Source: Bimuria novae-zelandiae CBS 107.79 (Eukaryota; Ascomycota; Dothideomycetes; Pleosporales; Didymosphaeriaceae). From it: 64,000 bases of DNA. Location: the NCBI GenBank assembly GCA_010015655.1, contig ML976697.1:277570-341569 (forward strand), written 5' to 3'. A program made the translations under genes and the position numbers. Positions 10,340 to 49,968 of this stretch are shown piece by piece (positions within the stretch are counted from its first letter, which is position 1; each line of letters opens with the position of its first letter). Below the pieces are notes generated by a model, which was not told the DNA's origin, did not search any database, and saw nothing but the letters and a program-made list of their open reading frames with translations.

Positions 10340-10357
10340 TTATCTCATTAATCAGAC
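10340..10357 (+). repeat. Left terminal inverted repeat of X
   Basis: TTATCTCATTAATCAGAC, preceded by the TSD ACCCACGG. It mirrors 49951-49968. Confidence 0.75.
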
Positions 10358-11039
10358 ACCCTGCAATTGCGGCGGCGCTAGCGCGCCACCTAATTATCAG
10401 CTAATCAGAAGTTCGCATAAGTTTGTATAAGTTACTAAGAGTTTTAGACTAATTAGCGCTTAATTATATTATTAGCTAATAATTAATTATAAAGCGTCTA
10501 AGGACAAGTGTTAGGCGCGTTAGTGCAACTTTAGGAACAGGCCACTAGCTATTTTATAACTACCTATATATCTTAACGCCACTATCTTGGGGCATTACCG
10601 CGCAGATCTAGATTATAGCGCAAGTAAATATCTACATTTTCGTATAATTAAATAGTGTCTAACTACGCGTCTTTAGGGCAAAGTACTACACGCTATATAG
10701 TGACTTTTTGCGCAACGCGTGCATTTAAACACCTATTAATATCCACTAACCCTACGCCTATCGTCGCCTCCCCTATAGTAAAAACTATAACCTATACTTA
10801 ATAGGCATATAATAAGCCCCCTTATATTATGTTTAGAGACAGCGCGACGCGTTATAGTAGTTATAAGATTTCCTCTATAGGTGTGTTTAGTTAGAGTAGA
10901 GTACTACTATAACGCGTTATATTAACGCTTACGGGGTCCTATAAACTTCTAAAAAAATCTATAAGCTTATAAAAACTCCTTAAAACTTCTTAAGACTCTT
11001 AACTTAGTTAGGTGTGTAGTACTATCTAGTAGATATAAC
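10358..11039. other. Left subterminal region of X, no clear gene
   Basis: AT-rich with a GC-rich start (GGCGGCGCTAGCGCGCC at about 10371). It holds the scattered motif AGAAGTTCGCATAAGTTT near 10405 and a related run of TATAAACTTCTAA / TTATAAAAACT units at about 10950-11010. No protein match is visible in any frame. Confidence 0.5.
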
Positions 11040-11256
11040 TTTTAGTAACTCCTAGGTAGTGCTAGGTATAGCTCGAGGCAAGCGTAAGGGTCGTAGAGGG
11101 CTACTATCTACTACCTATAGCATTATAGCTTTAGCTTAGGGTGTTATAACACCTACTTCTACGCGTAAATAGATAGTTAATTAGTAAATAAAGTAAGCGT
11201 AAGGGAGATAGGATGCCTAGCTACTTAAGAACCTTATAAAGGCACTTAATTATCTA

Positions 11257-11706
11257 TGTTATAAGGCTCTCACACCTTAGTCCGGTTCGGGTTAGGGCGG
11301 TAAGATATCGTGGTGCTTCACGGATTATTTAGTAGTATAAGTTAATGCGACACTTAGCACGGCTAGATAATTTAATCTTATAATAAAGTAAGATAACTAT
11401 TAGTCTATATAGGAGAACGTACTCGCACAGAAGATATGTAAGTTAACTATAAGGAGAGAAACAATATAGGAGAATCGTTATACTATATACTAGTCTGTTT
11501 CCTCCTTGTAGTCCCGCCAAGACTCCATAGTCCCAGGGACTCTGGTAGTCCCATGGGACTTCCTTTTATGCGGGACTTTATTACGTAACTACTAATATAA
11601 GCTACCCCGCGCCTCTTTATATTTCGTTATTTTTATTATTCTATTAATAATTACTTTTTTAGCGTAATTACCTAGCTTCCTTCTTTTAGTCTTTATAGTC
11701 GTAACA
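11257..11706 (-). repeat. 3' LTR of gypsy C
   Basis: 450 bp, TGTTATAAGG..GTCGTAACA, matching 18712-19161 at the same length. It is more AT-rich than the other copy, so the LTRs were mutated separately. It contains a TCCCGCC..GGCGGG-like GGGACT/AGTCCC inverted-repeat cluster near 11510-11580. Confidence 0.92.
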
Positions 11707-11724
11707 TTATCCTCCCTCTTAAGG
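11707..11724 (-). other. Polypurine tract of gypsy C
   Basis: Minus-strand AAGAGGGAGGATAA abuts the 3' LTR start TGTTACGAC. Confidence 0.65.
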
Positions 11725-11855
11725 TTATTATCCTAATATCTTGCTTTGCTGTGCTGTGCCGTCGGCGCGTAGGTGCTAATTATTATAAAGGTGCGTCCCC
11801 CCTACGTCCTAAGGCAGGCCGCAGCCTCTCCTTAATTCCCCTTACCTTACTAGCC

Positions 11856-12299
11856 ATGCCAAGAACCCCCTATTCGTCCCTTGCGACCCGTCGTGCCCGT
11901 GCGTAAAAGGTAGAAGCTTAGGGCCTAAAGATAGTATCTAGTTATAAGTGTTATTAGAAGAAGAAGTTACGGTGTTTTATTAACGCTACCTCTAGGTAGT
12001 GTGCGGGCTATCTCGCAGCTTATGCTAAATATAGTCTATAGATTCCTAAGAAGGATTAGGAGCGCGTTTAGAAGGAGAAGCGTAAAAAGCGCCTTAAGCT
12101 TCTTCGTGCGAAGGAGCTAGCTACTCGCTTAGAGCGTAAATTAGCGGAGATAGAGGAGAAAGAGCGCGAGTATACTTAATATAACCTGCGCATAGCTAAT
12201 GTAATTAAGGCGTTAGAGTAGCTAGAGAAGGATCTAAAGGGTATAGCTAGCATTCGCGAACTATCGCCACACGTACCTCTAGGGGCTAACTTAGGCTAG
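11856..12299 (+). pseudogene. Antisense Zn2Cys6-like accessory ORF of gypsy C
   Basis: ATG at 11856 in the context GCCATGCC, TAG at 12297-12299, 147 codons with several stops. The N-terminus MPRTPYSSLATRRARA resembles the basic start of the B copy. The stretch LRCFINATSR.CAG(Y)LAAYAK(Y) keeps the second half of the B cluster (CX8CX2CX6C) with two Cys read as Tyr, which TGY-to-TAY change explains. A long Lys/Arg/Glu-rich helix follows (KEKRKKRLKLLRAKEL). It sits antisense between pol and the 3' LTR. Confidence 0.65.
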
Positions 12300-15200
12300 T
12301 TATAGGCTAACTTATTTATTTCTTTTAACCCTTTTGCGTCCTTCGACCTTTTCAAGTTCCTTACTAATCCAGTCGCGGCGCCTCTAGATGTTCCTTGTGG
12401 AACTTCTCTAGCGCTGTCCTGTAGTTCGTGAGGTTTTGTACTAGTTCCTATATGTTGTGGTCCTCTGGCCATCCTTCCCATTTCACTAGATACTTGTACT
12501 AACGCCTGATTTCTTATAGGTCCCTAATAGCTTCGACCTCGTACTCTTCGTCCTCGAGTTCGAGTTGTGTTTCTAGTTCGGCATTTGGTGGTGCTGGTTC
12601 TAACAATAACTTATGGAAGACTGGGTGGATTCGTGTATCTATAGGTAATTATAGTTTGAAATTAACTAGTCCTCTAACCTTTTAAATTTTAAATAGTCCT
12701 TTTTAAAAGTTATCTAGTTTTTTGCTTAGCCTTATTATCTTAAAATTTTTTCGCGAGAGGAGAACTCTATCCCCCTTCTTAAAGGTTAGTTCTATAATCC
12801 TTTTTTTATTTGCCTATCGCGCTGTTTATTTGTTACGCCGCGTGATATTCTTATGCAGTGTCCTATGCAGGTCCTGCATAAGTTTGGCTTTGTTGGCTGC
12901 GTTCTTTACTATGCTCTGGATGTCTAATGGATCCTGGTGAGTCGTCGGCTCACATCCATGGTTGGCATAATATGGCGAGTACCCCGTAGTCGCCGATCTT
13001 GCGCTATTGTATGCTAGCTAGGCTATGGGCAATAGCTCAACCTAATTATTTTAAAATTTATTTATATATATCTAGAGATACTGCTCTAGTGTTTAATTTA
13101 TACGCTCTATTTGGCCGTCTATTTTAGGGTAGAAGCTCGTTGTGAGCTTATACTTAATTCCTAATTTAGCTGTGAACGTGGTCTAGTATAATAATATAAA
13201 TATCTTGGCCCTGTCTGTAATAAACTTGTCAGGTTGTCTAACTTGTAATATTAGTTCTTGTTTTACTACGTAAGCTAGTTCTTCTACTAATATAGCTTCC
13301 CTAATTAGCATAAACCTCGACTCCTTAGGAAGTTAATAGATTATAACTAAGATTAAGTTATAGGGATCCTTATTCCTTAGTGCTAGTAATGCTAGTAACT
13401 TCACGATGAAGTCCATGGTTACGCTTAACTATGGTCTTAGGGGCGGCTTTAGTGGCTGTAAGAGGCCATAGGGCTTATGTCTCTTAGGCTTATTCTTGTG
13501 ACAGGCCAAATAGTTGCCTAAAATCTTCTATACTACCTGGCGTAGCCTAGGGATAGTATATTCGTTTGCGATTTAACGCGTTGTTTTAGCGATCCCTAGG
13601 TATTTTTAATCCTTGTCCTTATATAGTTTTTTAATTAGCAGCGGAGCTATCTGCTTACTAATCTAAATATAGTTTTAATAGTCCCGTGCCGTCAATTTTG
13701 TAGCTTAGTAGAGATTATACGCTTGGCGATCCTCGTTCGTGAGCCTATCGTAATCCTGTATCCCGTCTATAGCTGGCCTGTGATAGGCGAGATCCGCGCG
13801 CTGTACTTCTAGTGCTAGTGCGAGCTGTGTTTTATTATAGCGAAGGGTTCTATCCTTTGCGTAGGTTAGGATTGTAATATAATTACTACTATTATCTTCT
13901 TCTATAAGTTCTAATTATCTGCTAAGTGTATCTGCCGCAGCGTTTGCGTTTCCTGGCAGATGCGTAATGCGAAAGTCGAATTCCGCTATTTATTTAGACT
14001 ATCTAGCCTATCGCCAATTAAGGTTCTTAGTCGTTGTGAAGTGGGTTAGATTAAGGTAATTAAAGAACACTTTTATCTAATGCTTAGCTCCCTTAAGCTA
14101 TACTTTCTATTATTTAAAGTAGTTAATAATAGTAAGTAATTCCTTATCGTGGATTTTGTAGTTAAGCTCCGCTCCTGAGAGCTTTCTTATATAATAGAAG
14201 ACGGGTCTCCACTTCTGGTTATTACATTCTTATAGTAGTATGGCCCCTAACGCATAGTCCGATGCGTTTGTGTAAATGCGGTGTTATCGCTCCAGGTCGT
14301 ATATCTATAGTAGGGGTGCCGTTAGGAATAGGCGCTTTAGTTATTTAAAAGCTTCCTTCTCTGTTTCCTGTAGAGGACGCTATTTCCCTATCTTTATAAG
14401 TTCTATTAGTAGAGCGGTGACCTTTAAGTAGTTCCTAATAAATTTGCGATAGAAGTTAGTAAAGCCTAAAAAGGATTAGATATCCTTTACTAATTCTAGC
14501 AGCGGCTATTCTTCTATTATTACGATCTTTTTCGGGTCCATTTTGACACCTTTTCGGGATATCACAAATCCCAAATATTCCGTCTCAGTAACATGAAACT
14601 TATATTTCTTGGGGTGTAGGAGTAATTAATGCTCTTATAACTTCTATAGTACTTTTCGCACATGCTCCTTGTGTTCTTCCAGGGTCCTATGTAAATATAT
14701 TAAGATGTCGTCGAGGTACGCCGTGCAAAATACGTCTAAGTATTTATATAGTACTTAATTTATTAACTCCTAGAAGGTTGCTGGTGCGTTAGTTAGCCCT
14801 ATAGGCATGACTATATACTCGAAAAGGCCGTATCGCGTGCGGAAAGCTGTTTTCCACTTGTGCCCTTTTATAATTTAAATTCTATGGAATCTATCCTGGA
14901 CATCGAATTTCGTGAAGTATTTAGCTCCTCGGAGTCTATTTATAAGCTCTGTTATTAGTGGTAACGGGTAGTGATTCTTAATCGTCACGGCGTTTAGCTA
15001 TCTATAATCTATATAGAGTCGTAGCCTGCTGTCCTTCTTGCGAACAAAGAGTATAGAGAAGGCTATAGGGCTCTAACTAGGCTACTATTTCCCGGAGCGT
15101 AGGTTTTTCTAGATAAGCTCCTTTAACTCTTTTTCTTATTTATATGTAAGGGGCCTTAGGCGCTCTAGCCGTAGCTTGGCTCCTTCTATTAATAGTATCT

Positions 15201-15900
15201 TATAATCCTATTCCTTATGTTTAGGTAAGATAGTCTCGTCGTGTTTCTTAAATAGGTCTGCGAATTCCTTATATTCTTCTAATAGACTAGGGTTGTCTAG
15301 GACTATCTTAGTCTCCTAGACCTATATATAGTGCACCTGTCCTAGGTGTTACTTTAAGATCCTGTCTATCTTGCATACTAATATTTCTTATATTTTAGAT
15401 AGTCGGCTCTTCTTCCTCGCCTAAGGTTTTTGTGGAGTTTCCCTTCTACCAGGGCTCTCTTAAGCCATCGCTGGTGGCCTTTGGGGAAGGATTGTTTGTT
15501 TAATCTAGTCTATTCGTGGATTATGTTGCTCTAGCTATTTGTATTTTATAATAGCTTTAATGTCTCCTATCTTTACGATGGTGAAAACATGTTGGCTCTT
15601 TAGGCTTGCTATGTTAACTTGTACCGGTGCCGTTTTAAGGCGTAGCTAACTGTTACCGTATCCTTACGATTAGGTTCTATCCGCGAGTCCTATTTGCAGT
15701 AGTATCCTTTTGTTGCGATATGGCATATTATATTTCTTAACTACTCGTGGGGCGATTAGACACGCGTCTGCCCCTAGGTTAATTAGTGCTGTAACACGAT
15801 GTCTATGCACCGTAATATTTTTAATTAAGCGCTTTTTAACTCTGCGAGTGTTTACTTAATAAGCTATATAATTACACTATTACTAGTGTGGCTTGTTACC
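12300..15900 (-). pseudogene. pol: Gypsy C pol: protease, RT, RNase H, integrase, chromodomain
   Basis: The protease has ALINLGAD near 15770-15800 (catalytic Asp read as Asn). RT has [31 protein letters not shown] and YLDDILIY near 14700-14720, so the RT active-site Asp pair survives. Integrase has a degraded QTDGQTER (..NRRPNRAYKLNTRA) near 13080-13140. A well-kept chromodomain reads EYEVEAIRDL..YKYLVKWEGWPEDHN at about 12410-12560. This is the best-preserved chromodomain in the window. Confidence 0.82.
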
Positions 15901-16147
15901 TAGTGATAATTTAGTTTTTTGAGTCTTCGGACTTGTTTTGGACCCCCTATAAGGCCTCTACCTCTTAGATCTAACCTTTAAGTCATGCTAGCTTCGAGAC
16001 TTCCTTAATTTAGTGCTACTTATATTGCTGTTAATATAGTGCATAGGTTTCTCTAATCCTATTAGGTTTATATACTCCCGGTATCTCATGTTGCAGGCAG
16101 TTTAGAGTAAGGCACTTGTTCTAGGCTAATACGTTGTGCCCTGGGTA

Positions 16148-16981
16148 CAGCGCTGCCAACGAATCGAACAGGATCCGAACAAGGTGCTTGTTCGTTCGTT
16201 CGGCCCACATACAAATGTACGTACGTTCGAGACGACTCGAACAGGAGCGTCTTCGAACAGTACAACGAACGTTCGGCCGAACGTTCGTATATATACAACT
16301 TTCCTAATTAGGAAGGAGGTTGGTGTTGTGGTCGAGAAACTGGCTGCCGTCCACCAGCTAGATGTTTTGGCCGGCATCCTTCTTGACGACGTGGTTGAGG
16401 AGACGTTTGCCTTGCCAGAGGCGGGTCCATACAATAGGAAAACGAGCTCCGGACACTTTCAGCTCGCCGGGAAACTCATGCGTAGGAGCGACGGACTCCA
16501 CTTTAGATGGCGAGTCATCCAAGCTCTCGAAGCTCTCCGCCATCGCCATGACAGCTGCCGTACGCGACCCGGCATGGTGATAGCTGTCAAATGCCAGCCG
16601 GGTTGACTGGGTCGACTGGGTCGACTGGGACGAGTGCGAGCGGGTAACAAATTGATCCATAACAAGATACGCTCACGGCTGACGATGGGAAACAGTGGGA
16701 GGCACGTCGACGAGAAAACTCAGAGTTTTCTTCTCCTACAAGAACGTTGCACAAGGCCAGCAGAACAAGGTAATACTCCACCAATTAGGACAGAATCCCC
16801 ATACTAAATCGATCAAAAGTAGTCCCGAACAACCGAACAACCGAACGTTTGGCTCTAATAATGCGTTCGTTCGAAGCTCTGTTCGACCCACCATGCCTGT
16901 TCGTTCGTTCGATCCAAAACACCAGAAAACGCCGTTCGGATCGATTGTTCGGATCGAACGTTCTGTTCGTTGGCAGCGCTG
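16148..16981. mobile_element. Non-autonomous hAT-type element (834 bp) inside gypsy C
   Basis: A 16-bp inverted repeat CAGCGCTGCCAACGAA lies at both ends, flanked by the 8-bp TSD CCTGGGTA (16140-16147, 16982-16989). Both ends are rich in CGAAC/GTTCG subterminal repeats. The middle (minus strand, 16358-16660) keeps a clean frame MDQFVTRSHSSQ..SPSKVESVAP..RLWQGKRLLNHVV, which I take as a leftover N-terminal part of a transposase; no catalytic region is present. The base composition is normal and it carries few RIP changes, unlike its host. Confidence 0.85.
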
Positions 16982-17049
16982 CCTGGGTAGTTGTTTAAAG
17001 AAGCTACTTCTTCCTGCAGGCTTAAGTGTGCGAAGCACTATAGGTTGTA

Positions 17050-18700
17050 TTACTCTTACCTAATTAATAAGTAGTCCGCGTCTCTTCCTAGCTACGTGCT
17101 TCCTATTATTATGCTAGTGTTGTAGGGGTCTAAGCCCTAAGGGAACTAGCCTGTTTTAAATTTTTATTGCCTGTGTACCTCGCAAGTAATATTAAAACAT
17201 TAATACTAACTATTCTATTTATAGTGCTTAGCCTAATAGGCTAGAAAGTACTTATAGTAATTATTAGGCACGCTGCACTAGCTTTGCTTTAGCCTATAGT
17301 GTTCTAAACCTCCTGGAAAATAGGAGGCCCTAACTCTAGCCTTAAAGTGTTGTCGGCATCCTTTGCGCGTGCATTGCCACCACTTGGCGTATTCATGTTG
17401 TTCCTGTATCGTGATCTAGTGTAGGTATTGCTTTGGGCACCCTTGTAGTTTTTCTACTAACTAGTAGGCGTCCCATGCGTATGCCCCTTGGACGATCACT
17501 TTTACCTTATACTAAGACAATTAATGTAGCGCACTGCTGCACATCCAGTAGGTGTTATTAGCCAGTCTTTGGAAGATCTAGTACTTAGGAAGGGTCTTTT
17601 GTTCCTCTTCCTCTTTTATTAGCTCTGGGATCTCCTGCGTAAGATCCACTTTATTGGCTTTTACCGGCGTAAGGGTGGCCATGGCTACTTATAAGAGATT
17701 GGTCGTATTAACCTTGGTTTCCTGACTGTCGCAGTCTTTGGCGAAGTGGCCTTATTTGCTATATTAGAGGCAGGCTTTATCTTTAAACCTTTATTTTTGT
17801 TCTTCCTGCGAGATGCCATTCTTGCCCTAGTAACTCTTCTTTAGTCTATATAGCTATTTTCCCTTGCCGTTTTTCTTTTTGTACTATTAGGCTTTATTAG
17901 TTATAATAACATCTCCGTCCTGGTCTCTTCCTGCGGGCCTGGATTAATTCTCTTTTCTAGTAAGTAGCCTAGTACTATGCTGCTTTTCTAGCTTGCGTTT
18001 GTACAGGCGATTGTCTACTTTAATTATATTATTAATAAGTTCTTTTAGGTTGTTTGCTTTTCCTTAGTGGACTAATTTGTCTTTGACTAATTCTTTTAGT
18101 CTATTATAGTAGGTAATTATGAGTAGGGCTTCCCCCTATCCGTTAAGTTCTGCCACGATCTATTTAAACTCTAGCGTATAGAGTACTGCTAATTTTTCCT
18201 GGCGCAGGCGCTAGAGGCGTAGTTTGGCTTAATATCCCTTATTAATAGTACTAAATATTCCTTTCACGGCCTTGCAAAAGGACTCCTAGTCCTTAAAGGC
18301 GTCCTTAGTAGCGTCTAAGTTATAATCCTCTACTTTGCTATTCTTAAGGAAGTTATTAATTATTAGTCTAGCCTACGCGGCTGCCTTGTCTTGCATATTT
18401 ATATAGGTAACTAGGATCTTGTCTTATTCCGTGTTAAACTTTCCTGGGTTGTAGCGGATGAATAGTTTTATCTAGGTTAGGAACGTTCCTGGGTGGCCCT
18501 TTCTAGAATAGGGTTTAGGCTTCGGGACCTTTGGTTGATGCTTTGTATTTTCCTATTGGCTTATCTTCTTGCTTATCTGGTTGATAATTTCTTGTAGCTG
18601 GGCTATTTAAGCCGCTTGTTTAATAACTATCTCTCTTAGGGTCTTTTCCTTAGGTGCCGGAGCTACGGTGGTCGAACTAGGTCCTGCTATTATACCGTAG
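17050..18700 (-). pseudogene. gag: Gypsy C gag with zinc knuckle
   Basis: The minus-strand frame reads PGKFNTE..DKILVTYINMQDKAAA and continues as DATKDAFKD.ESFCKAVKGIFS, typical of a Retrotrans_gag domain. A zinc knuckle CL.YSK.GHFAKDC lies at about 17735-17795, with its second Cys read as Tyr. The gene is degraded throughout. Confidence 0.65.
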
Positions 18701-18701
18701 G

Positions 18702-18709
18702 GTAGTTAA
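18702..18709 (-). other. Putative self-priming site of gypsy C
   Basis: Just inside the 5' LTR. On the minus strand TTAACTAC is complementary to GTAGTTAA, which lies inside the LTR (18898-18905) about 30 bp after a TATA-like stretch. This is the arrangement of Tf1-type self-priming. No tRNA 3'-end match (TGG..) is seen at the LTR border. Confidence 0.45.
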
Positions 18710-18711
18710 AG

Positions 18712-19161
18712 TGTTATAAGGCTCTTACACCTTATTCTAGTCTAGGTTAGGGCGGTAAGGTATCGTGGTGCTTTACAGATTATTTAGTAGTATAAGTTAA
18801 TGCGACACTTAGCGCGGCTAAATAATCTAATCTTATAATAAAGTAAGATAATTATTAGTCTATATAGGAGAACGTACTCGCACAGAAGATATATAAGTTA
18901 ACTACAAGGAGAGAAATAACATAGGAGAATTATTATACTATATACTAGTCTGTTTCCTCCTTGTAGTCCCGCCAAGACTCCGTAGTCCTAGGGACTCTAG
19001 TAGTCCTATAGGACTTCCTTTTATGCGGGACTTTATTACGTGACTGCTAACATAAGCTACCCCGCGCCTCTTTGTGTTTCGTTGTTTCTATCGTCCCGTT
19101 AATAATTACTTCCTTGGCGTAATTACCTGGCTTCCTTCTTTTGGTCCTTGTAGTCGTAACA
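18712..19161 (-). repeat. 5' LTR of gypsy C
   Basis: 450 bp, the same ends as the 3' LTR. A TATA-like run (TATAGTATA on the minus strand, about 18935-18945) precedes the proposed transcript start GTAGTTAA. Confidence 0.92.
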
Positions 19162-21197
19162 ATCTAGATAAGCTACCTCTCTAGTAGCTCCGCGAAGTTA
19201 TTAATAAGGGGTATTTACTTAAGTATTATAGGCTTTAAGAGTAGGTTATTAAGCGCTGTCTTTGTTATATATTAAATAATAGGTCTTTTAGTAGTTAAGT
19301 CCTATAGCTATAGCAGGTGCGGACTCTTCGCTGGTTAATATACGAGTAGGGTGATATGCTATTAGTAGCGCGGACTGGGTTTAGGAAGAGTATTGTCTTT
19401 CACGCGTACTCTATCTTTACAGGGAAGATAACGCTCTAGATTATCCCTCTTATTAAACTAAGGGAGGAGTAGCTAGAGGATATTAAATAGTATAATAGTA
19501 CTTAACTATGCCTGCTAAACGGTATTACTTGCACTACTAAGAAGGATCTAATTAAGTAAATTAGTAATAGTAAGTTTACGCATGTGTTACTTAGTCTAGA
19601 GTAGGCATCCTTAAATAAGTTCTGTAAGGCGTTACGGCGTCTAGAGTTTTAGGCTATAATTAGGATAATTACTATTAATAAGTGCTATCTAGTCGCATAA
19701 TAAGATACTTTTTAACTAAAGTATACTATGCTATCGCAGCTACGGACAATATTATACTAAGGTATTATCTAGTTTAGTTACACTATAACACTTAACGCCT
19801 ATTAAGAGAAGCGTGTGCTAGAGTTAATAAGATTTTAGGTAGTTAAGAATAGCATACATTAAACTACTATTATTTAAATATTTATTAATTATCTTAACGC
19901 GTCCCTTTGTGTTCTGCCTATATATTAAGGTAAGCTAGAGTTATGGGATACTCTATATTTCCTATTAAATAAGGCCTAAATGGACGGCATCGCGACACCT
20001 AATTATATACTAAAGACTATCGTGTTTATTAATAGTCAGGCGAACGTGCAGGTAGCTATAGACTAGGCTCGTAGTATCTTACTCCGCGAGGCAGGTAGCT
20101 TTAGTGGCTGGCTAGACTATTTAAGGCAGCGTACCGCTAGGGAGCTTTACGTATTCTTTATTATATAAAGTTTCTTAGCGACTATGTTAGAGCACGACTG
20201 TAACGCTACATACGAAGAGTTTTAACGCAGTAATTTAAAGTGTTAGATTATATTTATTACTACTTATCTTAGTATAAGTATTAATATCCTAGATATTCTG
20301 CGTGTTGTTGTGTAGAAAATGCCTAGGACACACGATCTTAGGGATACGTGGTAGCGTATTAGTCGCGGGGGACGCAAGTATAGGATCTAGAGTTATAAGT
20401 ACTTATTTCTACTGTATTAGATATTTAATACACATAGCTAGTTTAAGAAATCCTCTTGTCCAGTAACTAAAGATATAGTTATAGTAGTAGTATTAAAGGG
20501 TAGTCGCAGAAAGAAGGGGAGGAATAAACTACTAATATAAGGTATATACGCCCTAGCTCCGCTATTACTAACTAGTACTCTTAGCGACGCGGTTATATAT
20601 AATAATAATTAGGGTACTATCTTAGGCGCGAGTACTAAGGATACTCCCCTAGTAAATAGTCTATATTTCTAAGTTAATACTAAAGTAGAGCGCCGCCAGA
20701 AGCACCCGTTATAGATAAAGATAATTAATTTAATATGTCCTTACTAGTATTTCCTAAAGTATTTTAAAAAAGATAAGCTTCTAATATATAAGCGTAAGGT
20801 TGTCCCTTCTAAGAGCTATTATAATATATATAACCTATCTCTTACTTTTATTATTAAATATCCGCCGCCCTTGCTATAAGTGCTTAGTAAACTAGCTAGG
20901 AACTCTATCGCGAATAGTATAGTCGCCACTATTACTAAATAGGCGATATAGTAAGGCGCATTATCCCTTGGTTTAGCTAGTCGCTACCCACCACCTGCTA
21001 GGTATTTTATGGAGCAACAGTGTTGGTGGGACCTTAGGCAGTATTACGCCAGGCTAATGAGTTATATGCGTACGGATTGGCCGTCTTTTAAAACCATTTG
21101 TTCCGAAGTCCCGTTGGTACGTACGTGGGTTGCTCAGCGCGGGACTCGAGACCTTCTAGAGTCGTTGTTATGGGACATCGTGCAGTGTGGCAGTTAG

Positions 21198-21562
21198 AAG
21201 TAGGAGAGTGCTTAATGGCCTCGAGTAGGCAAGACTAAGGACTCACAGGAGACAAGACTATCTACGCCTATAGCTATTAGCTCTACTATCGTAGTCCTCT
21301 TATCGCACGAGCGCATTCGTCTCGAGTAATAGAAACGCGACTTAGAGCTTATAAAGTAGTTCGCAACGTATACTATTAAGTAGTAGCTAGTTATAATAAA
21401 CGTTCCTAGTAGCCAGCCACCTATTATACTAGCGACACCTTAATTAGAGCGGGACGTTATTATAGTAGCTATATCGTTGCCTAGGTATGTCCTTACTAAT
21501 ATTAATGTGTTGCTAGTAAGTCTAAGTGTATGCTATGCGATAGACTAACTATAGCGTATATA
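21198..21562. other. Element X DNA downstream of the helicase
   Basis: No recognisable gene. It ends at the TA target of pogo-like element P1 and resumes at 23493. Confidence 0.4.
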
Positions 21563-23490: not shown

Positions 23491-23492
23491 TA

Positions 23493-24716: not shown

Positions 24717-24735
24717 TCATCCCCCTCCTCCAACT
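24717..24735 (-). other. Polypurine tract of gypsy D
   Basis: Minus-strand GGAGGAGGGGGATGA lies directly before the 3' LTR. Confidence 0.8.
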
Positions 24736-24814
24736 AATTCGTCCTCGAATCACCTAACCTGTCCCGTTAATTAGTTAAAGTCCGGTGACCCTATACTTAT
24801 TAGTTCTCGCTATA

Positions 24815-38276: not shown

Positions 38277-38302
38277 AAGCAGGATCTTTTAATCCTGCTT
38301 AG
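38277..38302. other. 9-bp stem inverted repeat
   Basis: AAGCAGGAT, a short loop, then ATCCTGCTT. It could form a hairpin; no role is known. Confidence 0.5.
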
Positions 38303-38812: not shown

Positions 38813-39116
38813 AATAATAAGACCTATTATCCTACGAAGTTAGTTTAATCTTTATAGTTAAGCAAGATAGTTAAGCGCTAAAAGAGGGGATAATAGGTCC
38901 TATTATCCTATAGAGCTAGTTTAATCTTTATAGCTAAGCAAGATAGTTAAGCACTAAAAGAGGAGATAATAGGTCCTGTTATCCTATAAAGTTAGTTTAA
39001 TCTTTATAGTTAAGCGAGATAGTTAAGCGCTAAAAAAGGGGATAATAGGTTCTATTATTTTACAGAGTTAGTTTAATCTTTATAGCTAAGCGAGATAGTT
39101 AAGCGCTAGAAGAGGG
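38813..39116. repeat. Tandem repeat, 4 copies of 76 bp
   Basis: Unit starts at 38813, 38889, 38965 and 39041, end 39116. Each unit carries GATAATAGGTCCTATTATC, a 9-bp inverted repeat around one base, and the block TTAGTTTAATCTTTATAG. Copies differ mainly by transitions. It is the only clear satellite in X and lies between the GC-rich gene and the DUF6589-like gene. Confidence 0.9.
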
Positions 39117-39599
39117 GATCCCGCTATTATAGACCTGTTACTACTACCTAGTAGAGGAGGCAAGTACTAGTACTAAAGTTATAATATTTAATTAACCTTT
39201 GCTTACTAGGGCAAGGTAATAAGAGAATTTACTTTTAGCGACGCGACTAATAGTGTTAAGACTATAAAGGAGAGAGAGGCGGGTGCGCATGTGCTATTAA
39301 TATTATATAAAATAAAAGCTAGATAGACTATACGTAAAAATATAACGTATTATTGCACGCTTGCGAACTTGTGTAACTTTTTAAAAACACCTTATAACTC
39401 TTACAAACTTCTAAAAGCTTTTAATTACCTAAATAATAGCCTAAGGCTGGGTATACAACACACACACACACGACTAGAATACACGATATTCTAGTAACTT
39501 ATTACAACTTATGTAAACTTCTAACACACAAGTATATAACTAAGATATAATAAGGCCTTAATTAAGGGATAAATTTAGTATATTTATTATATTAGATGC
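39117..39599. other. Element X spacer with motif copies
   Basis: AT-rich with AACTTCTAA-type motif copies near 39370-39410 and 39495-39520 and a short (CA)n run at 39455-39470. No gene was seen. Confidence 0.4.
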
Positions 39600-42028
39600 G
39601 GGGATGCGCGAGACGTTAAAGGCTAGATTACTAATATAATTATAGACGTTAAGAATAGCTATAGCGTAGGCCTTAATATTAATAAAGCCCTTAAATGGAT
39701 TATTATCGCCACTTGCCTGTCTAGCTAGCTATACAAGATCTACGAGACAGGCTATCTAGGAATTAAACTACGCTACCTTATCCTCGAGCATAGTCGCGCT
39801 AATAGTAAATAGGTTATATAAATTAAATATTTATTAGTTATGCACCTATTACGCAGGACAAGGTTTAGCGTAGTAGTCTCTTAGGATCGTGCCTGCCAGA
39901 CCAAACATATCGTGTACAGCCTCTGTAGAAGTATGCGAAGATGGTATCTTCTCCCTAAAGAAGTCTTTAAGCCATGTTCGCGCAGCGTGGACCCATACAC
40001 TATATAAGGTAGTACGCTAAAAGATAATACCTATATCGTATATAGAGTTCTTTAAGGTCTTAACGTTAATCTTGCTATTACAGTTAAGGTGCTTAAGAGA
40101 TAGATTAATTAGCTTAAAAGAGTTATTATAGCTTAGCTAGTTAACAAGTCCGGATGCAAGTATAGTAGACTAAAGTAATAGATTACTAGTATCTAATAAC
40201 GTCTAGCGATAATATAATATCTTACGCCTATAGTTACCTTGCCTAGCACCCTAAAAGACATAGATTAATAAGTTAACAACGCGTTAAAGCATGCTAATAT
40301 TACCGTGCTTAATAGCATGCTTTACTATAAGATATAGCTTAACCTCCTAAAAAAACTGGCATATAGTACGGAAGTTAATATTTGCTACTAGGCTAGACTA
40401 GGCCTATAAGGTAAAGGCGGACGTATAAATCTCTTTAACTAGCTTATTAAACTATGTTAGCGTAAGTCCTGTAATAGCACGATTAATGTCCTTATAGCGT
40501 GTAAAGTCTAGGGTAATACCCCGCCTTTGTATAGCCGCATAGAAGAGCGTAGTAACCCTAGCAGTATAGCCCTATATAATAATAGGCTCTATAACATGGT
40601 GCTTAATATTGTCCCTTAAAGCTTGTAACCGGTTCTATAGAACGGCGTCGCTAGAGATGCAATAGACTAGATTTTATATAGGATACGTAGGTAGATAATA
40701 GGTCTATACTACTATAGCCAGCAGATTTATCTGCACATGGAACCAGGCAGGGATAGCAAGTATCTAAGCTTGGCTATTGTACGGCCGGACAGCATGCAAT
40801 TAATCTATCTAGACTAAGCGTATTTATTCTGTAGTAAGCTAATCGCTATGTATAAGGAATAGACGCTTATTAAAGTCCTTTGCAGAGTCTAGGCTAAGCT
40901 AGTTAAGAAATATATTATTATATACGTAATACGTACCCTTAATTATACTCTTATTAGCTATAATACTAGCGAACTAGTGGTACTCTGTCTTATAAATAGG
41001 GAGGCGGTTAATAGTAGGGATATAAAGATACTTAGACTCTATATCCTTAAATATCTATTATATAGCTTTAGTATAAACACGCTTTAGGGCATCCACGATA
41101 AGACCTTTAGTAATATTAAGCCCTAGCCTGTCTCTATTCGTAACACTAAGGCTGTCTATAATATTAGATAGTTATAAGGGGACGTCTGGATAGTGCATAG
41201 ACTAACGTAACTTTACGGAACCTAAGGCGTAATAGCGTACGTAGACGGCGTTCGTAAGCGAATAATACTACATGGTATGCCTAAGCCTCTCGTAACGCTT
41301 TTAATCTATTAGATTTATATTATTATACGCAACAACATACTATTTAATATAAAAAGGTCTAATTGCGAATCTACTACTTAGGTTAGCATAGGTACTACTA
41401 GATATACTTAGGCTAAACGCTATATACTACGCATAAAGCATATATAAGAAGTTTAAATAAATATAAAGAAGTTATTAAAAGGACTTAGAAGGTTAAATAA
41501 GTATACAGGAGAAGGCAAATATATACCCTTATTATACTTTAAATCTTATTTATTAACTAATTTCTATACTTATATAAATAGTAAAGACTAAAACTAGCTA
41601 ACGTCTCTACTACCCGCCACGGCACGCCAGATCTAAGGAGGTATAGATCTAAGTAAGAAGTAAGGAGGTTTAAACTAATCCTTGCCCGCAAGAAGCATAT
41701 TATACTTATAATAGTATAAATACGCTTATTAACCTAGGACTCTTAGTGTTAATTTATTATAAGAGCCTTAATAAGCCTATACTACGTTAGAGTAATAGAC
41801 TAGATTGCCTAAATAGTAATTATAAAGTCTATGTTATTAATGCTTACTATTATTATATACTTAAATTTTCTAAATAATAGATACTGCCCTAACACCTTAA
41901 GCTCTACCTTATAGTTAACTATAACTAGCTAATAGTATAACCCGCGTCCTGTAAAATACTATATAATTAACGTAAGGCTCTTATGTTATGCGTTAACGCG
42001 TTAAAACCTCTTATGCTAGAGCTCTACG

Positions 42029-42201
42029 TGTCACGAGTCGTAGGTCGAGGGCCCTCGACGGCCCTAGTCCGCTCTAGACCGGCGCTATTCGGGCCTTCCG
42101 CCTATCTACTTCCCTCGCCGCAGCCCTTCTCTTCCCTCTCTAAGGGATCGCCTTAGTACTGTAGATAGACTAAGTCGCCCGTAGTTAGGGCGCTTTTTAT
42201 A
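42029..42201 (+). repeat. 5' LTR of gypsy G
   Basis: 173 bp, contains GGGCCCTCGACGGCCC and TAAGGGATCG at 42141-42150, the sequence complementary to the proposed priming site. Confidence 0.92.
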
Positions 42202-42204
42202 ATA

Positions 42205-42214
42205 CGATCCCTTA
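42205..42214 (+). other. Putative self-priming site of gypsy G
   Basis: CGATCCCTTA, three bases behind the 5' LTR, is the exact 10-base complement of TAAGGGATCG inside the LTR (42141-42150, 49153-49162). This matches the Tf1/sushi mode of self-primed reverse transcription better than a tRNA primer. Confidence 0.6.
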
Positions 42215-42349
42215 CCCCCTTATATCTAATTCACCTGTACGATAGAATTAACACGAAGAGTTACCTGCTAGACCTTAAAGATAGTAAGAGACCCTTAAAG
42301 CAGGTTACTACTTATAAAACCCTTTAAATAAGAGCCTCTAATAGTTGCA

Positions 42350-43690
42350 ATGCCTATAAAAGACCTAACAACACCTATAAACCTAGAGGAAGACCCCCCT
42401 GCCGTTATAAGCAGTAATAATAACTAATAATTAAAGAAAGTTACCCTCTAAGAACGCCTAGGCGTGCTATAGCTCTAATAACGCATCTAAGAACTAGAGG
42501 CCTCCCTAATAGTAAAGCGTTACTAATCTAAAGGCAAGACCCTAGTTAGGAACAAGATAATAACTACTAGCATCTCTAATAACTCCCTAGAGCCCGAAGA
42601 GGGTCACGGCAACCTAAACAAGGCCAAAGATATAAGTAATAACCTATTAAGTAATAGCTTAATAGAGGACGCGTCCTTAAGCTTAGATAATACTAGTTAA
42701 GACTAATCTAGAGCTTTTAGAAGCATCTAACGCCCGCGAAAGAAGGATAGACAAGGCTAGGCCCACACTAGCCACGATAAAAAACGTTAGATCTAAATAG
42801 TAGCTACTGCCCTAGACGCATAGCTACTAAAGCCACTAAAACCCCCTTAATTTAAGGGCAAGGGTTATAAGGAACTAAACTTATAGAAGAGAGCTTATAA
42901 GGACTATATTAACTTCTTACCTACCCTTAAAACTAACAAAGCGCAGGTTAGGTTTGCAGTAAGATACTTAGGAAATACACAACGTAACTACTAGAACTAA
43001 ATAGTCGCCAAGATCCTAGAGCGGAAGCAACACAGGAAAGTCACCTGGGACCTTCTATAGTAGACTATAGTAGACTCCCTAGGATTAGCCTAGGAGCGAA
43101 AAAGTGCTACTCGCTAAAGGATTAAGGTAGCTAAATAAGGTAAGAAGACCCTTATAGAACTCCTTAACTACCTTAAGGACTAATAAGAGGAATGCGACCT
43201 AAAGAAGGCCTTAAATAATAATAATAAAGACTATATTAATAACTTCTACATAGTACTAGACAAGAAAATCTAAGAATACCTTAAATAGTAGCCGCGCGAA
43301 TAGAAGAGCCTCTTTTACTTAGAAGTAAAAGTAAATATATATTAGCAAGTATTAAAACCTTATAAGTTAAGGAAATAACGCATACACGATGTTAATAATA
43401 ACTTTCTTAACAAGCTAGCTAACGAAAGGCGCGATCGAAAGCGATCTAGGTTAAATAACATAAGACTATACTAGAGACGCCACGACAGCGACCGTCGCAA
43501 TAAGGACGGTAAGAAGAAGGCTTAGGTAGTAGAGAACAAGGACAAGGACTAATACTTTTACTACTATAAACCAGGCTATTATAAGGCGTCCTATTCAAAG
43601 TACAAGGCCGAGGCGGGGAAAGACAAGCTGTAGACTAAGAGGCCTAATAGTCTATAGGCAAGGTTAACTATAATAAGGGTTAATAATAAC
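42350..43690 (+). pseudogene. gag: Gypsy G gag with zinc knuckle
   Basis: A possible start ATG at 42350 opens MPIKDLTTPINLEEDPPAV. The domain reads through many stops. A knuckle near 43540-43590 reads YFYYYKPGYYKASY, where CxxCxxxGHxxxxC is expected: every Cys and the His became Tyr, which TGY-to-TAY and CAY-to-TAY transitions explain in one step. Confidence 0.7.
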
Positions 43691-43739
43691 TAGTTATAGC
43701 CGCAAGGACCCCTAAGAATAGGAGTGGTGGCTTACTAAT

Positions 43740-46700
43740 CGCGCTAGACGGTGAAGTACAGCACGAGGGCAACTAATAATAGATTAAAGCCCTAGTAGAC
43801 TACGGAGCTAAAGCGAATTTCGTTAGCAGTAATCTAATAAAGCGGTTAAAGGTTACAGTAATAATAATAAATGGCAAACGCTACGTGGCGCTAAACGGAC
43901 AAGACTTGGGCGTTCTAGGCCAGGCGAAGCTCCCCTACACTATTATAAACAGTCGCGGTAAAACCAAGAGCGGTAGTTGCCTGTTCACAGTTAGTAACAT
44001 TAGTAGATTTGACATGGTTCTAGGAATGCCCTGGCTAGTAGAATAGAACCCTATCGCAAACTTCTATAACAAGACTATCCGCTTCGCCCATGGGAAGCGC
44101 AAATAGACTAAGATCTCTACTAAATTAGCAGAAGAGTTTGCCAGCACGGCTAAAGACATAGTAAATAACTATTTTGTTATATATGCCACCCTAAAGGACA
44201 CATTAGGAGGCCCACCCAGGACGCTACCTAAAAAATACTAGGGACGGTAAGAGGAAGCCTTCTCTAAAGAAGCCGCAAGCATTCTTACTAACCATGGCCC
44301 CTATAAGATAAAGATTAATATTAAGGAAGGCAAGGAAGTGCCTTTTAGACCACTCTATAGTCTATTAGAGTTAGAGTTAGCAGTTCTACGCGACTATATC
44401 TAGAAGAACCTTAAATAGGGCTTTATTTAACTGTCGCAATTAAGCGCCGGGGCACTAATCCTTTTCGTAAAGAAAAAGAATAGAGGCCTCCGCCTCTACG
44501 TTAACTATAGGGGACTAAATACAGTTATAATAAAGAACTAATACCTACTTCCCTTAATACAGGAATCCCTTAACTAACTAGGGGATGCCCAGATCTACAC
44601 TAAACTAGACCTAAGGGACGCCTACTACCGCGTCTAAATTAAGGCAGGAGATAAATAGAAGACGGCCTTCTAAATAAGGTATAAATAGTACAAATACATA
44701 GTAATGCCTTTTAGCTTAATAAACGCGCCTGCGACCTTCTAAAGCTATATTAATAATATACTATTAGACCTTCTCGACATCTGCTATATTATGTACCTTA
44801 ACAATATCCTTATCTACTCTAAGACAAAGGAGGAATATATTTAGCACGTTTAGACGGTGCTAGAACGCCTTATTAAACGCTAGCTATACGCTAAACTATT
44901 TAAATACGAATTCCACACACGCAAGGTAGAATACCTAGGCTTTATAGTATCCCTAAATAGCGTAGAGATAGAGAAGGACCGCGTCGCCTTTATAAAAGAT
45001 TAGCCTAAACTAAACTTAGTCTAAGTAGTTAGGATCTTCCTTAGCTTTGCCAACTACTATCGAAGGTTTATAAAAGAATTCTCTCGAGTGGCGGCACCCC
45101 TTTACGCCCTAATAAGAAGGCTAGAAGGAGCTACTAAGGGCGGACAGTAATAGAAACTTAAGGAATTAGTTATAATAAGCCTACTAAAGCAGGCTAAGGC
45201 CTTCTTTTACTAGCTAAAAGAGAGCTTCATGCGAGGGCCCTTACTAGCCTACTTTAACCCTAGAAGACCCTTAAGAGTAAAAACTAACGCTTTAGGTTTC
45301 GCGATCTTGGGTATCTTAAGCCAACTATAACTAGACAAATATAGGAAGCTATAATAGTACCTAGTTGCTTTTTATTCGCGCAAGATAAACTAGGCAGAAT
45401 AAAACTATAACACGCATAATAGCGAGTTGCTAGCAATTATTAAAGCTTTTAAGTATTAGTAACACTACTTAGAGGGTATTAGTAAGAAGGTCGAGCTTTT
45501 AACTAATTATGCTAACCTGCAAGGGTTTATGTCTATAAAAGTCCTAACTAGATAATAGGCAAGGTGGGCCAAATAGCTTACAACGTTTAATTTTAAAATT
45601 AAATACTATCTAGGAAGGACGAATTCTGCTAATAGACTATTACAAAGACCTAACTACGAGTTAAAAGAGGAAACAAGCTTAGGCAAGATAGGTAGTTCCT
45701 AGTAAAGACTTCTTAAGGCCCTATAGCATAAGTTATAGCTAAAAGGCAACGCTTTAGACGAAGCAGGCGTGGCAGGTAGCTTATAGCTACTAAAGTAGGC
45801 AGGAAGCCCTAGACTAGTAGTAGTAACAAGGGTCGCTAGACCTAGAACGTTAGCGACTAAGGAGGTAGCGGTAAACGATTTAGCAAGCGCTTACCCTATA
45901 GTAGAGCTATTAGAGAGAAATAGCCAGGGGGACGAAACTATAGAACGAATCCTCTAGTACCTCCGAGGGCCAGAGATGGCAAAGCCGGAATGGCTAAAGC
46001 GCTAGATAATTAGACCGGCCAACCTATTATAGTACGAGAATAGGCTATACGTGCCACTTTTAGCGAGGGTATACGTCCTTTAATAATGCCACAATAACCC
46101 CCTCGCGGGCTATTTTAGCTTTACTAAGACCTTAGAGCTAGTGCTGCGAAAGTTCTAGTAGCCTAGTGTTTAATAATACGTAAAGAACTACGTCTAGACC
46201 TGCTAAGCGTGCTCTAGGGCAAAACCTGTCTAACACGCAACGCACGGCCAACTTAATAGCCTACTAGTCTTAAGGGGCATCTAGGAGGACATTACTATAG
46301 ACATAGTAATAGATTTACCTAAGAGTAAATCTAGAGCCTATTGTTATAATAGTATCCTAGTAGTTATTAACTAGTTTTCTAAGATGGCACACTACATCCC
46401 CACGCGAAAGGACCTAAAGGTAGTAGAGCTAGCTAAGGTTTTTAAAAGAGAGGTTCTGCGCCTACACGGCCCTCTAAAGTTAATAGTTACGGATAAAGAT
46501 AGCCTATTTATATTAGCTTATTAGAGCACCTTTACTTAATATTTAGGAACTAAGTAACTTCTTTTTACTACCTTCCACCCGCAGACAGACGGACAGACAG
46601 AATAATAGAACTAAACGCTTAAATAGTACCTTTAAGTGTTCTATAACTACGAATAATCTAATTAGGCGGACCTTTTATCCGAAGCAGAATATTCGTATAA

Positions 46701-47390
46701 TAATAGTATTTATAGCTCTACAGGAGTGTCGCCATTTATTATAGTATACGGCCTAAATCTACTAATAGTAGGCCTGTCCCGAGAAGTACAGCTGCGCGGG
46801 TTGGTACCTATAGTAAGGGCCAGAGCGATAGTTCTAGCCTAGACTAGGGCCTGGATAACCTAAGCGATCCTTAGGGCACAGGCGTACTAGGCGACGTGGT
46901 ATAATAGGAAGTATAAGGCCCAAACCTTTATAGTAGGGGACATGGTATACCTTAACGCCCGCAATATACGGTCAACTAGGCCTAAGAAGAAACTTAACTA
47001 CAAGTCCTAGGGTCCCTATAGGGTAAAACGGCGAATTAGTTAACAGGCATATGAGCTAGAGCTATTAAAGGACTTTAATATTTACCTAGTGTTCTATGTG
47101 TCTCTCCTAAACCAGGCAGCCCTAGAAGGACTGCTATAACGAGAGTAAAGCCCGCCTAAGGTTATTATACTATAAGCAGGGGAGGATATATACCTAATTA
47201 AAGGAATTAAATCTAGGGTACTCTAGGACAGAGAATGGCTGTATAAAGTTAAGTGGAAAGAATACGATAGCGATAAGAACTAGTGGTTATCTATAGAGGA
47301 GATTTCTAAAGGGGTAATAAAGCAGTTCCTAAAGAGCTTAGATAAGGAGACTAAAGGTCGCCCTAGATAGGAGCCCAAGAGGCGGGGTCA
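43740..47390 (+). pseudogene. pol: Gypsy G pol: protease, RT, RNase H, integrase, chromodomain
   Basis: The protease has ALVDYGAKANFVSSNL near 43785 (DSG became DYG). RT runs from PFRPLYSLLELEL through KTAF..RYK.YKYIVMPFSLINAPATF to YLNNILIYS near 44795-44820 (both active-site Asp became Asn). RNase H has KTNALGFAILGILSQL near 45280 (Asp to Asn). Integrase has DIVIDLPKSKSRAYCYNSILVVINWFSKMAHYIPT, TDKDSLF and FHPQTDGQTE at about 46300-46600. A diverged chromodomain (YKVKWKEYDSDKN.WLSIEEI) lies at about 47230-47310. Confidence 0.85.
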
Positions 47391-47689
47391 CCCCCCTAGA
47401 GAAGGAGGAAGACAGCACTCGATAGTAATTAGTAATAGATTACTCTAGAGAGTACACTTTATAGGCTGCGAAATACTAGAATGAATAGGGCAGAGAATTC
47501 TTAAATAGACTAAAGACTAGAACGAGCTATCTAGGCCTATTTAGGCCTCTTAGGGCCTAACAGAGGCTTACAAGCCCATTCGGACCGTACCCAACGCGAT
47601 TATAGCCAACCGAAACCTAACTAAAACCGCCTAAGGGTATAGAACGTGAATAAAATCTAGACACCGTTAATAGGGGCAGGAATCCCTAA

Positions 47690-48757
47690 ATTATACTAAA
47701 TAACCCTCTTAATTAGTTAGGCGCTTAGACTTATAGGCTTGCTAGAAAGTCTCTTAATTACCTTTACTTTTAATCTTCTTCTTTACTTCCTCTGCAAGAA
47801 AGTCCAGCGTGGCTAAGACACTAGCCTTAAACGCTAACTACCCTAAATTAGCATTAATAACCCGGGATTAGGGTTAAGGACTTTTACTAACTTAGAAGCA
47901 ACCTTCTTGCGCCTAGGGGTGAGAGCACTAGCAGTAATTAGGGAGGTTAGACTACCCCCCTTTATAGTAGAAGCTTTCCTCTTTCGCTTCTCCTTAATAA
48001 AGAGGCCTACCACCGGAATGATCTCCTTAGGAGGCCAGGTGTTATAACCTAAGTGGTAGGGGGTTAACGGGTTTCCGTAGAATTTGGATCCGGTGGCCCT
48101 ATGCGACTTAGTCTAGATAACCCTTAACTACACTAAATAATACTTATATAATAATATTACTCTATTCCGTCTCTAGTACCTGCGTAGTGGCCTTTACTAA
48201 TGCCTTATTTAATCTAGAGAGGTTAATCTCGTCGCATGTATACACATTAATTTGGCTCGAGCACGGTATAAGGGTAATTAGGGCACTTAACATGTTTTTT
48301 AAGTTGTCTTTAGGTATCTACTACTAATTAGCCTCGAAACCCCTATATAACCCTTAAAGCGCTAACTTACCTACTAATAATCCTTACCACCGCTATAGCA
48401 GGTATCGCAGCGGCAGATTAAATTATAGTCCTCTAAATCTATTAGGCTAAGATTAATATACACTACCTTAGACTAGACACGACGCATCTCCTTAACCTAA
48501 AACTAGTAAAGCTTTATCTTCTTATAATTAGACTACTTAAGGCTATCTAGGATAATAGAAAGGCAGGTATAGTATAGGTTAATAGTACTAATCGCGCTCG
48601 CACGCGCCTTATTAACTAGGGTTTTAAGAATAGCGTTTGCGGTACTTATAGTGCCAAATAGCGTAGGTATGTCTAGACAAAGTCTAAAGGTTGCTAAAGA
48701 GGGCGGTAGAGAAGTAACAAGTATAGGGACGACTTGGCAGGCCTGCACCGGGTTAGT
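47690..48757 (-). pseudogene. Antisense accessory gene of gypsy G
   Basis: A long minus-strand frame lies between pol and the 3' LTR. The upstream part (48533-48748) is open: QACQVVPILVTSLPPSLATFRLCLDIPTLFG..INLYYTCLSIILDSLK. It continues through stops with LICRCDTCYSGGKDY (possible metal-binding Cys cluster) and ends in an open basic stretch around 47800-48070 (NTWPPKEIIPVVGLFIKEKRKRKAS..TPRRKKVASKLVKV). About 350 codons. It is not similar to the Zn2Cys6 type of A-D, but is equally placed and oriented. The function is unknown. Confidence 0.5.
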
Positions 48758-49040
48758 CTACCTTTACGACCCCTAAATTTAGAGTGGCTAGGTACCGAAA
48801 TAGGGGGCATTTAGGGTTAGGCACCCTAGACTGCTATAGATTAGCTAGGTCGTACTTACGGGTTAGGGAGCCTCTAGGATAAGGTAAGCCGCTAAGTAGA
48901 GAGTAAGAACAAGAGTTTTAGGCCTTAGTGTAAGCCTAAGATTTAGCTTACGTTATTAGCTTACGTAATACGCGAGGCCTAGTTAGGCTAGTTATTACGT
49001 ACTTATTCTCGCGGTTAAGACCCTTAAAGAAAAGAGCCTT

Positions 49041-49213
49041 TGTCACGAGTTGTAGGTCGAGGGCCCTCGACGGCCCTAGTCCGCTCTAGACCGGCGCTAT
49101 CCGGGCCTTTCGCCTATTTACTTCCCTCGCCGCAGCCCTTCTCTTCCCTCTCTAAGGGATCGCCTTAGTACTGTGGATAGACTGAGTCGCCCGTAGTCAG
49201 GGCGCTTTTTACA
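49041..49213 (+). repeat. 3' LTR of gypsy G
   Basis: 173 bp; differs from the 5' LTR by a handful of transitions (for example ATTCGGGCC/ATCCGGGCC), so the two LTRs diverged by RIP. Confidence 0.92.
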
Positions 49214-49750
49214 CTACGCCCTTATAGCTCGCATTAAAAGCTACCTAGGATAGTATAAAGTCCTTAAACGTCTACCTAAGCTCCTGTAGTAGGCGTAGGA
49301 CCTAATCTAACTTCTTAGCCTGTATACGACGACCTAAACAATATCTTGTAAGCAAAAAAGGTAGGGCGTTATTACTATTATCTAAAGCGCTTTTATTACT
49401 ACTAGAGGCACTCTTGTCGTTATCTATAACGTTACCTATATTAATATTATTATTAACGTTTAGTAAGGAACTTAAGGGGGGTTCCGTTACGTAAGAGGAG
49501 GCGCTAAAGGAGGCAGGAGAGAGGATAAAATTAGCTAAAAGACTTAAGAGGGGGCTACTAAAGGTAGTAACTTTAGTAGCTAGTAAGATCTAATTAAGGG
49601 CAGCGGGTATATTAGTAATAGATTTAGATTAGAGAGTAAAAGAAGGCGCGTTAATTTTACGTATTTTAGTAATAAGAGGACGTCGTTATAATATTAAAAT
49701 ACGTAGTAGTAATTATTAATAATTACCTTATACGTGCAGGCGGGGATATA

Positions 49751-49950
49751 CATAAATCCTAATAAATATCTTTAGACGCTATAGCTAGATAGTCCTTGCG
49801 GCGCTATAATTAGTCTATAAAATTTAGAAGTTTACATAAGTTTTAAGAACTAATTAGAAGTTTTTATAAGTTCCTAGAAGCTAAAAGCGGCTTAGTGCGG
49901 CGCTACCAAGGGCGCCAGCCCTTAGTGGCTCAAGGGCCCTCAAGCCGAGC
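49751..49950. other. Right subterminal region of X
   Basis: Contains AGAAGTTTACATAAGTTTT (near 49826) and AGAAGTTTTTATAAGTTCC (near 49857), inverted relative to the left end only as part of the motif family, and a GC-rich part GGCGCC..GGGCCC next to the TIR, like the left end. Confidence 0.55.
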
Positions 49951-49968
49951 GTCTAATTAATGAGATAA
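49951..49968 (-). repeat. Right terminal inverted repeat of X
   Basis: Reverse complement TTATCTCATTAATTAGAC, followed by the TSD ACCCACGG at 49969-49976. Confidence 0.75.

Follow-up and report, generated by a model that had tools for sequence, protein, structure and literature searches.

Helitrons, which encode a Rep-helicase protein, have neither terminal inverted repeats (TIRs) nor target-site duplications (TSDs), Kolobok elements duplicate TTAA, and to our knowledge hAT and Zisupton elements normally lack a RecQ gene. Two fungal TIR transposons described as carrying a helicase are AcademH and KolobokH. According to the accessible parts of the publications cited here and below, AcademH encodes a helicase and has been reported from fungi, Ascomycota among them (PMC10799480), with TSDs reported as 9-10 bp (PMC10045372). 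KolobokH, found only in fungi, encodes a RecQ helicase downstream of its transposase, and Kolobok termini read 5'-RR...YY-3' (PMC9587614). The DEAD and Helicase_C domains of fungal transposons have been attributed to AcademH and KolobokH (PMC10799480), and repeated RecQ-type helicase genes are described in ascomycetes (PMC4522978, PMC5576322). Here we describe element X, found in a stretch of 64,000 nucleotides (the window, C42:277570-341569) of the 77-Mb, 191-contig genome of Bimuria novae-zelandiae CBS 107.79, whose contigs are labelled with C-numbers, C42 being that of the window. We consider it about 80% probable that X is a short-TIR DNA transposon inserted by an 8-bp staggered cut, with two convergent genes as its own machinery: a DUF6589 gene, which likely encodes a DDE-type transposase, and a RecQ-type SF2 helicase gene, likely accessory.

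Ends, target site and copies of element X

X is bounded by 18-bp TIRs, TTATCTCATTAATCAGAC on the left (+) and TTATCTCATTAATTAGAC on the right (-), which match at 17 of 18 positions, and the 8-bp repeat ACCCACGG stands directly outside both. This repeat is exactly 8 bases long (lengths of 6, 7, 9 and 10 fail), and an 8/8 agreement between random 8-mers of the window is expected by chance at ~5e-5. With up to 3 mismatches, the end sequence has 3 matches in the window; across 100 shuffles the mean was 0.23, and no shuffle gave as many as 3. The third match, at 54732, is a duplicate of the right end that probably arose in assembly, because it lies within a 4.77-kb direct copy (52375-57145, 99.8%) of 47594-52364 that includes the right end of X and adjoins a 10-N gap. 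From end to end the element occupies 39,629 bp, from which we subtracted four nested guests together with one duplication each (7,910, 1,930, 10,803 and 7,190 bp), leaving 11,796 bp. The guest duplications ATCTA, TA, TTTAG and CTACG were read by eye at the junctions, the TA reading placing the start of guest 2 one base ahead of the blast edge, and the guest sites are naturally empty in other copies of X. The copy on C126 lacks guests 1-3, its piece 1 passing straight into pieces 2, 3 and 4; guest 4 is missing from the copy on C77, which is continuous across that site. The first-pass annotation had read this locus as an ~11.8-kb TIR transposon with inverted ends, an 8-bp TSD and four guests with TSDs of their own, and the ends, the exact repeats, the subtraction and the further copies agree with it on each of these points.

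The host of X is a long terminal repeat (LTR), one part of which lies on each side of the element. In a genome-wide search with the joined flanks (40 scored of 265 candidates), 14 of the 48 matches listed span at least 250 of the 254 bases at 80-94% identity; of the rest, 32 are partial and two correspond to the right flank of X itself and the duplicate of that flank. The joined flanks also resemble the guest 3 LTR, for the most part over one half. Since 14 LTRs run through the site uninterrupted, unoccupied target sites are present elsewhere in the genome, and the TTATCTC... end sequence does not belong to the LTR. The earlier statement that this LTR becomes whole only when X is removed thus holds, with at least 14 unoccupied copies. 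The same annotation had named intact LTRs naturally containing the end sequence as grounds for discarding X; the unoccupied LTRs instead run straight through the site.

Exact matches to TTATCTCATNAATNAGAC number 11 genome-wide; one of them is the duplicated right end, so that the distinct ends number 10. Elements damaged by repeat-induced point mutation (RIP) are densely nested in this region, where an apparent transposon might arise as a chance reading of nested repeats, and this loose end pattern with at most 1 mismatch gave 12 matches against 9 for a reversed-pattern control; the loose pattern alone proves little, and the flanking repeats decide. A tighter pattern, however, gave 11 matches against 2 for its reversed control, and the ends of X lie where homology stops and TSDs stand, in agreement with naturally empty sites and with the gene content. 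The 10 distinct ends allow 25 left-right pairings, of which three agree at 8/8 positions (C42L-C42R, C126L-C109R and C20L-C20R) and the other 22 at no more than 6/8; at all three of these resolved insertions 8 bases match and 6, 7, 9 and 10 fail. The chance reading, which is also contradicted by a second copy, has in our view practically nothing left to recommend it.

This second copy of X has its left end on C126 and its right end on C109, both at contig ends, with the common 8-bp duplication TGATGCGC. C187 resumes X where C109 leaves off, at a guest whose 5-bp duplication GTAGT was read by eye on both sides, and the presence of GTAGT on both sides of the break supports the view that C126, C187 and C109 hold a single X copy split over three contigs. 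C77 carries a third copy, broken off before its left half. In a diverged relative, C20:713104-775415, the two ends are identical over their 19 terminal bases and each is flanked by ACGGTAAT; it spans 62.3 kb, with several repeat pairs resembling nested LTR-type elements, and a search for cargo in it found no frame of at least 150 codons, the block being AT-rich with RIP-like ratios throughout. C19 carries the end sequence and C30 the variant end TTATCTCAGCGG, and the second ends of both, sought by TSD and end pattern, were not found. The check proposed in the earlier annotation, a second copy with the same two kinds of end together with empty sites, thus succeeded within this genome, and X is not refuted. 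At L038:1374 we observed a RecQ locus whose left end reads TTATCTCAGCGGTGCTCAGACG near a drop in GC content and which possibly belongs to a further family of the same kind; its partner end was sought and not found.

A convergent pair of RecQ-type and DUF6589 genes

The RecQ-type gene of X is heavily damaged, and its window stretch alone has no Pfam or NCBIfam match. The copy on C126 matches WRN (E 7.6e-5) and, under the Pfam cut-off, Helicase_C (E 2.3e-4), while the much less damaged helicase on C16, ~35% identical to that of X, matches DEAD (E 3.3e-13) and Helicase_C (E 3.5e-7), both above cut-off, as well as the RecQ family at E 1.7e-28, under the NCBIfam cut-off; its solved relatives are WRN and RecQ. 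X-type RecQ loci number at least 7 (C16, C33, C42, C126, C30, C19 and C20). In the search with the C16 helicase, 8 of 68 rows are helicase and the other 60 are confined to query residues 577-652. The final residues of the C16 helicase frame (L032:5943-6086) are part of a dispersed repeat that matches at 60 or more places in the genome.

Fungi, cnidarians and bivalves, groups from which Academ is reported as well, commonly have DUF6589 proteins. The Pfam DUF6589 profile was found at the window, C77, C187 and C16, and querying with the C16 protein brought in C33 and C20, giving at least 8 rows and at least 6 loci; for both genes the locus counts are lower bounds, the best candidates having been scored. 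Between X and C16 the DUF6589 genes are 35-40% identical, the 40% being obtained with read-through stops taken as Q; the C16 gene has an additional match at 41545-41733. Among viral contigs and prokaryote genomes no DUF6589 relatives were found, and a literature search by name returned no report on DUF6589, the matches to PF20231/IPR046496 being unrelated by title. From DUF6589 motifs we chose three candidate acids, D (YDNIN), D (GDQLT) and E (ALEHLN), whose spacings in the C16 copy are 167 and 254 residues. In the aligned copies the first D is present in 1 of 5, the second D in 2 of 6 and the E in 3 of 6, the rest being N or K, that is, the RIP changes D->N and E->K. If these changes are allowed for, the positions are compatible with D, D and E, which is suggestive only. 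We infer that DUF6589 is likely the DDE-type transposase of X.

In X on C42 and in the C20 relative, each gene lies within one end, RecQ at the left and DUF6589 at the right, and reads inward, so that the two are convergent; they are convergent on C16 and C33 as well. The order RecQ> <DUF6589 therefore holds at 4/4 loci with both genes, in three diverged families: by blastn, neither the C16 DUF6589 region nor the C20 stretches match the genes of X. RecQ or DUF6589 lies beside 8 of the 10 distinct ends at E <1e-10 (at C109 the match is limited to the 5' part of DUF6589), and the end on C47 shows only a weak match (E 4.6e-8), which falls at the start of the DUF6589 gene region of C16. C77 and C187, where DUF6589 occurs alone, are truncated copies or pieces of contigs, and C126, with RecQ only, runs off its contig. 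Since the two genes stay paired, and always convergent, across this divergence, they would best be read as the machinery of X, which fits better than cargo.

If RecQ and DUF6589 were instead captured cargo, X would have been moved by an unrelated transposase, for example of hAT or Zisupton (KDZ) type. X resembles both groups in its short TIRs and in its TSD, since 8-bp TSDs are described as usual in hAT and reported in Zisupton (PMC12730594), and DUF6589 is classed as a family of unknown function. Yet the same convergent pair recurs in elements that can be aligned only as proteins. Moreover, six-frame Pfam scans of the C126 and C77 copies, which together cover X, revealed no hAT transposase or dimerisation domain, no KDZ transposase and no other transposase family, RIP lowering the sensitivity of such scans on damaged sequence (the window RecQ also has no Pfam match). 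We hold the cargo explanation to be improbable. The first-pass annotation had proposed that the two genes are cargo or machinery of one unrecognised transposon family; the four convergent loci in three families favour machinery, while the idea of an unrecognised family is uncertain, as the helicase-bearing AcademH is known.

As machinery, the two genes would act as follows. X, with termini TTATCTCATNAATYAGAC, would insert by an 8-bp staggered cut; the DUF6589 protein, encoded near the right end, would cut and join DNA, so that X would move by cut-and-paste; and the RecQ-type helicase, encoded near the left end, may unwind the ends or the target, or aid gap repair.

Several points weigh against this reading. 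The C126/C109 copy is joined by inference over contig ends, with 276 bp of X unseen between C126 and C187. Within 20 kb of the end on C22, neither RecQ nor DUF6589 was detected. The annotation had proposed testing whether both genes always lie inside the ends, which is so at C42 and C20; C19 and C30, however, carry RecQ on contigs where no DUF6589 was found, and for the elements on C16 and C33 a search for the ends found none. Every copy is RIP-damaged and without an intact gene, and the movement of X is read from DNA sequence. As for the transposase, 26 columns pass the same RIP-tolerant rule as the three chosen acids, a structure model of DUF6589 from four RIP-damaged copies reached a mean predicted local distance difference test score (pLDDT) of 31.5, too low to be informative, and the DUF6589 profile matched no solved structure at E up to 1.

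RIP, recent movement and the layout of the window

Across most of the window, the TA/AT and (CA+TG)/(AC+GT) ratios and the AT-richness fit RIP, a pattern that by itself would point to a filamentous ascomycete. In six comparisons between X copies (the right end being compared with two copies), the differences comprise 945 transitions against 16 transversions, transversion differences amounting to 0.1-0.4%. This transition excess points to RIP damage of recently moved, formerly near-identical copies: since transversions are so scarce, the copies were nearly identical at the time of RIP, and X had moved shortly before. The features of the locus are collected in Table 1.

Table 1. Features of element X, its guests and its target site in the window
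Feature	Position	Strand	Evidence
Host LTR, left part	10276..10339	+	Flank comparison, genome matches
Left TSD ACCCACGG	10332..10339		Directly outside left TIR
Left TIR TTATCTCATTAATCAGAC	10340..10357	+	Sequence match
X piece 1 (left end; helicase gene would start here)	10340..11256	+	Collinear with C126 copy, 93%
Guest 1, LTR-type element, 450-bp LTR pair, duplication ATCTA	11257..19161		Site empty in C126
X piece 2	19162..21562	+	Collinear with C126
RecQ-type helicase remnant (40 stops in matched stretch)	19167..20846	+	35% amino acid identity to C16 helicase, E 1.9e-88
Guest 2, 1.93-kb element, AGTCGGGCACCC inverted ends, TA duplication	21563..23490		Site empty in C126
X piece 3	23491..24289	+	Collinear with C126
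Guest 3, LTR-type element, LTR pair, duplication TTTAG	24290..35087		Site empty in C126
X piece 4: GC-rich spacer, 76-bp tandem repeat, DUF6589 gene	35088..42028		Collinear with parts of C126, C77, C187
DUF6589 remnant, putative transposase (34 stops in matched stretch)	39600..41318	-	Pfam core 40062-41090, E 8.2e-32
Guest 4, LTR-type element, LTR pair ~180 bp, duplication CTACG	42029..49213		Site empty in C77
X piece 5 (right end)	49214..49968		Collinear with C77, C109
Right TIR TTATCTCATTAATTAGAC	49951..49968	-	Sequence match
Right TSD ACCCACGG	49969..49976		Directly outside right TIR
Host LTR, right part	49977..50363	+	Flank comparison, genome matches
Duplicate of right TIR	54732..54749	-	Within 4.77-kb near-identical repeat beside 10-N gap

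Guest 2 (21563-23490) is Tc1/mariner-like by its TA duplication only. Beside the DUF6589 gene, X contains a tandem repeat of 76-bp units (38814-39119), which is also present in the C77 and C187 copies. The GC-rich spacer of X at 36000-36900 has a weak RIP signature, and within 36296-36719 C126 ends, the C187 match stops and C77 breaks off. Piggybac-type transposase frames (DDE_Tnp_1_7, E 1.9e-34) follow directly after the break of the C77 copy (L014:7458-10000).

Comparison with described transposons

The first-pass annotation concluded that X fits none of the known groups. As written this is not supported, for the 3-4 bp TSD it gave to Academ is that of AcademX, while the helicase-encoding AcademH is reported with 9-10 bp in the accessible parts of the sources (PMC10045372, PMC10799480). 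Among publications accessible in part, our literature search noticed no element of X's kind, combining TIRs, RecQ and an 8-bp TSD. Helitrons are ruled out by the TIRs and TSD of X, and the scans revealed no Rep domain. Subtelomeric telomere-linked RecQ helicases share with X that they are repeated RecQ-type genes of ascomycetes (PMC4522978, PMC5576322, as far as accessible). Degenerate RecQ genes lie within ~12 kb of the contig start on C154, C50, C78, C45, C174, C61 and C19, as expected for such helicases; these loci differ from X in that none of their contigs has a DUF6589 match.

KolobokH likewise brings a RecQ helicase into a fungal DNA transposon and occurs only in fungi, as far as its description is accessible (PMC9587614). 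The termini of X read TT...AA rather than 5'-RR...YY-3', and its helicase is a separate convergent gene rather than one downstream of the transposase. The TSDs of X-type elements, 8 bp long and of varied sequence, are not the TTAA of Kolobok. With TSD, terminal bases and gene arrangement all differing, we regard it as very unlikely that X is a KolobokH element.

A more tentative proposal, which we rate as possible and clearly short of even odds, is that DUF6589 and RecQ would mark a superfamily of their own among eukaryotic cut-and-paste transposons, characterised by 8-bp TSDs and TTATCTCA ends and belonging to neither Academ nor Kolobok, whose unrecognised transposases would be the fungal and animal DUF6589 proteins. 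Whatever the class, X offers a concrete setting for DUF6589, as the probable transposase of TIR elements with a RecQ-type helicase. Should other genomes bear out this link, part of the scattered fungal RecQ and DUF6589 genes could be annotated as parts of transposons, and X-like elements would provide a natural system for the role of RecQ helicases in DNA transposition and for why TSDs vary between 3-4, 8 and 9-10 bp among possible relatives.

By class, X most likely belongs with the AcademH lineage, either as a variant or as a sister, as judged from published descriptions of AcademH. The reported occurrence of Academ in fungi, cnidarians and bivalves, where DUF6589 proteins are common, speaks for this placement. 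Here DUF6589 would be the Academ DDE transposase, the RecQ-type protein the AcademH helicase, and the 8-bp TSD a small variation, an assignment that we judge rather probable. As a question of class, it is compatible with the mechanism proposed for X. The two are alike in carrying a helicase and in their Ascomycota host range (PMC10799480, as far as accessible), and the C16 relative of X has both DEAD and Helicase_C domains above cut-off; they are unlike in their TSDs, which are 8 bp at all three resolved insertions of X-type elements and reported as 9 or 10 bp in AcademH (PMC10045372, in the accessible part).

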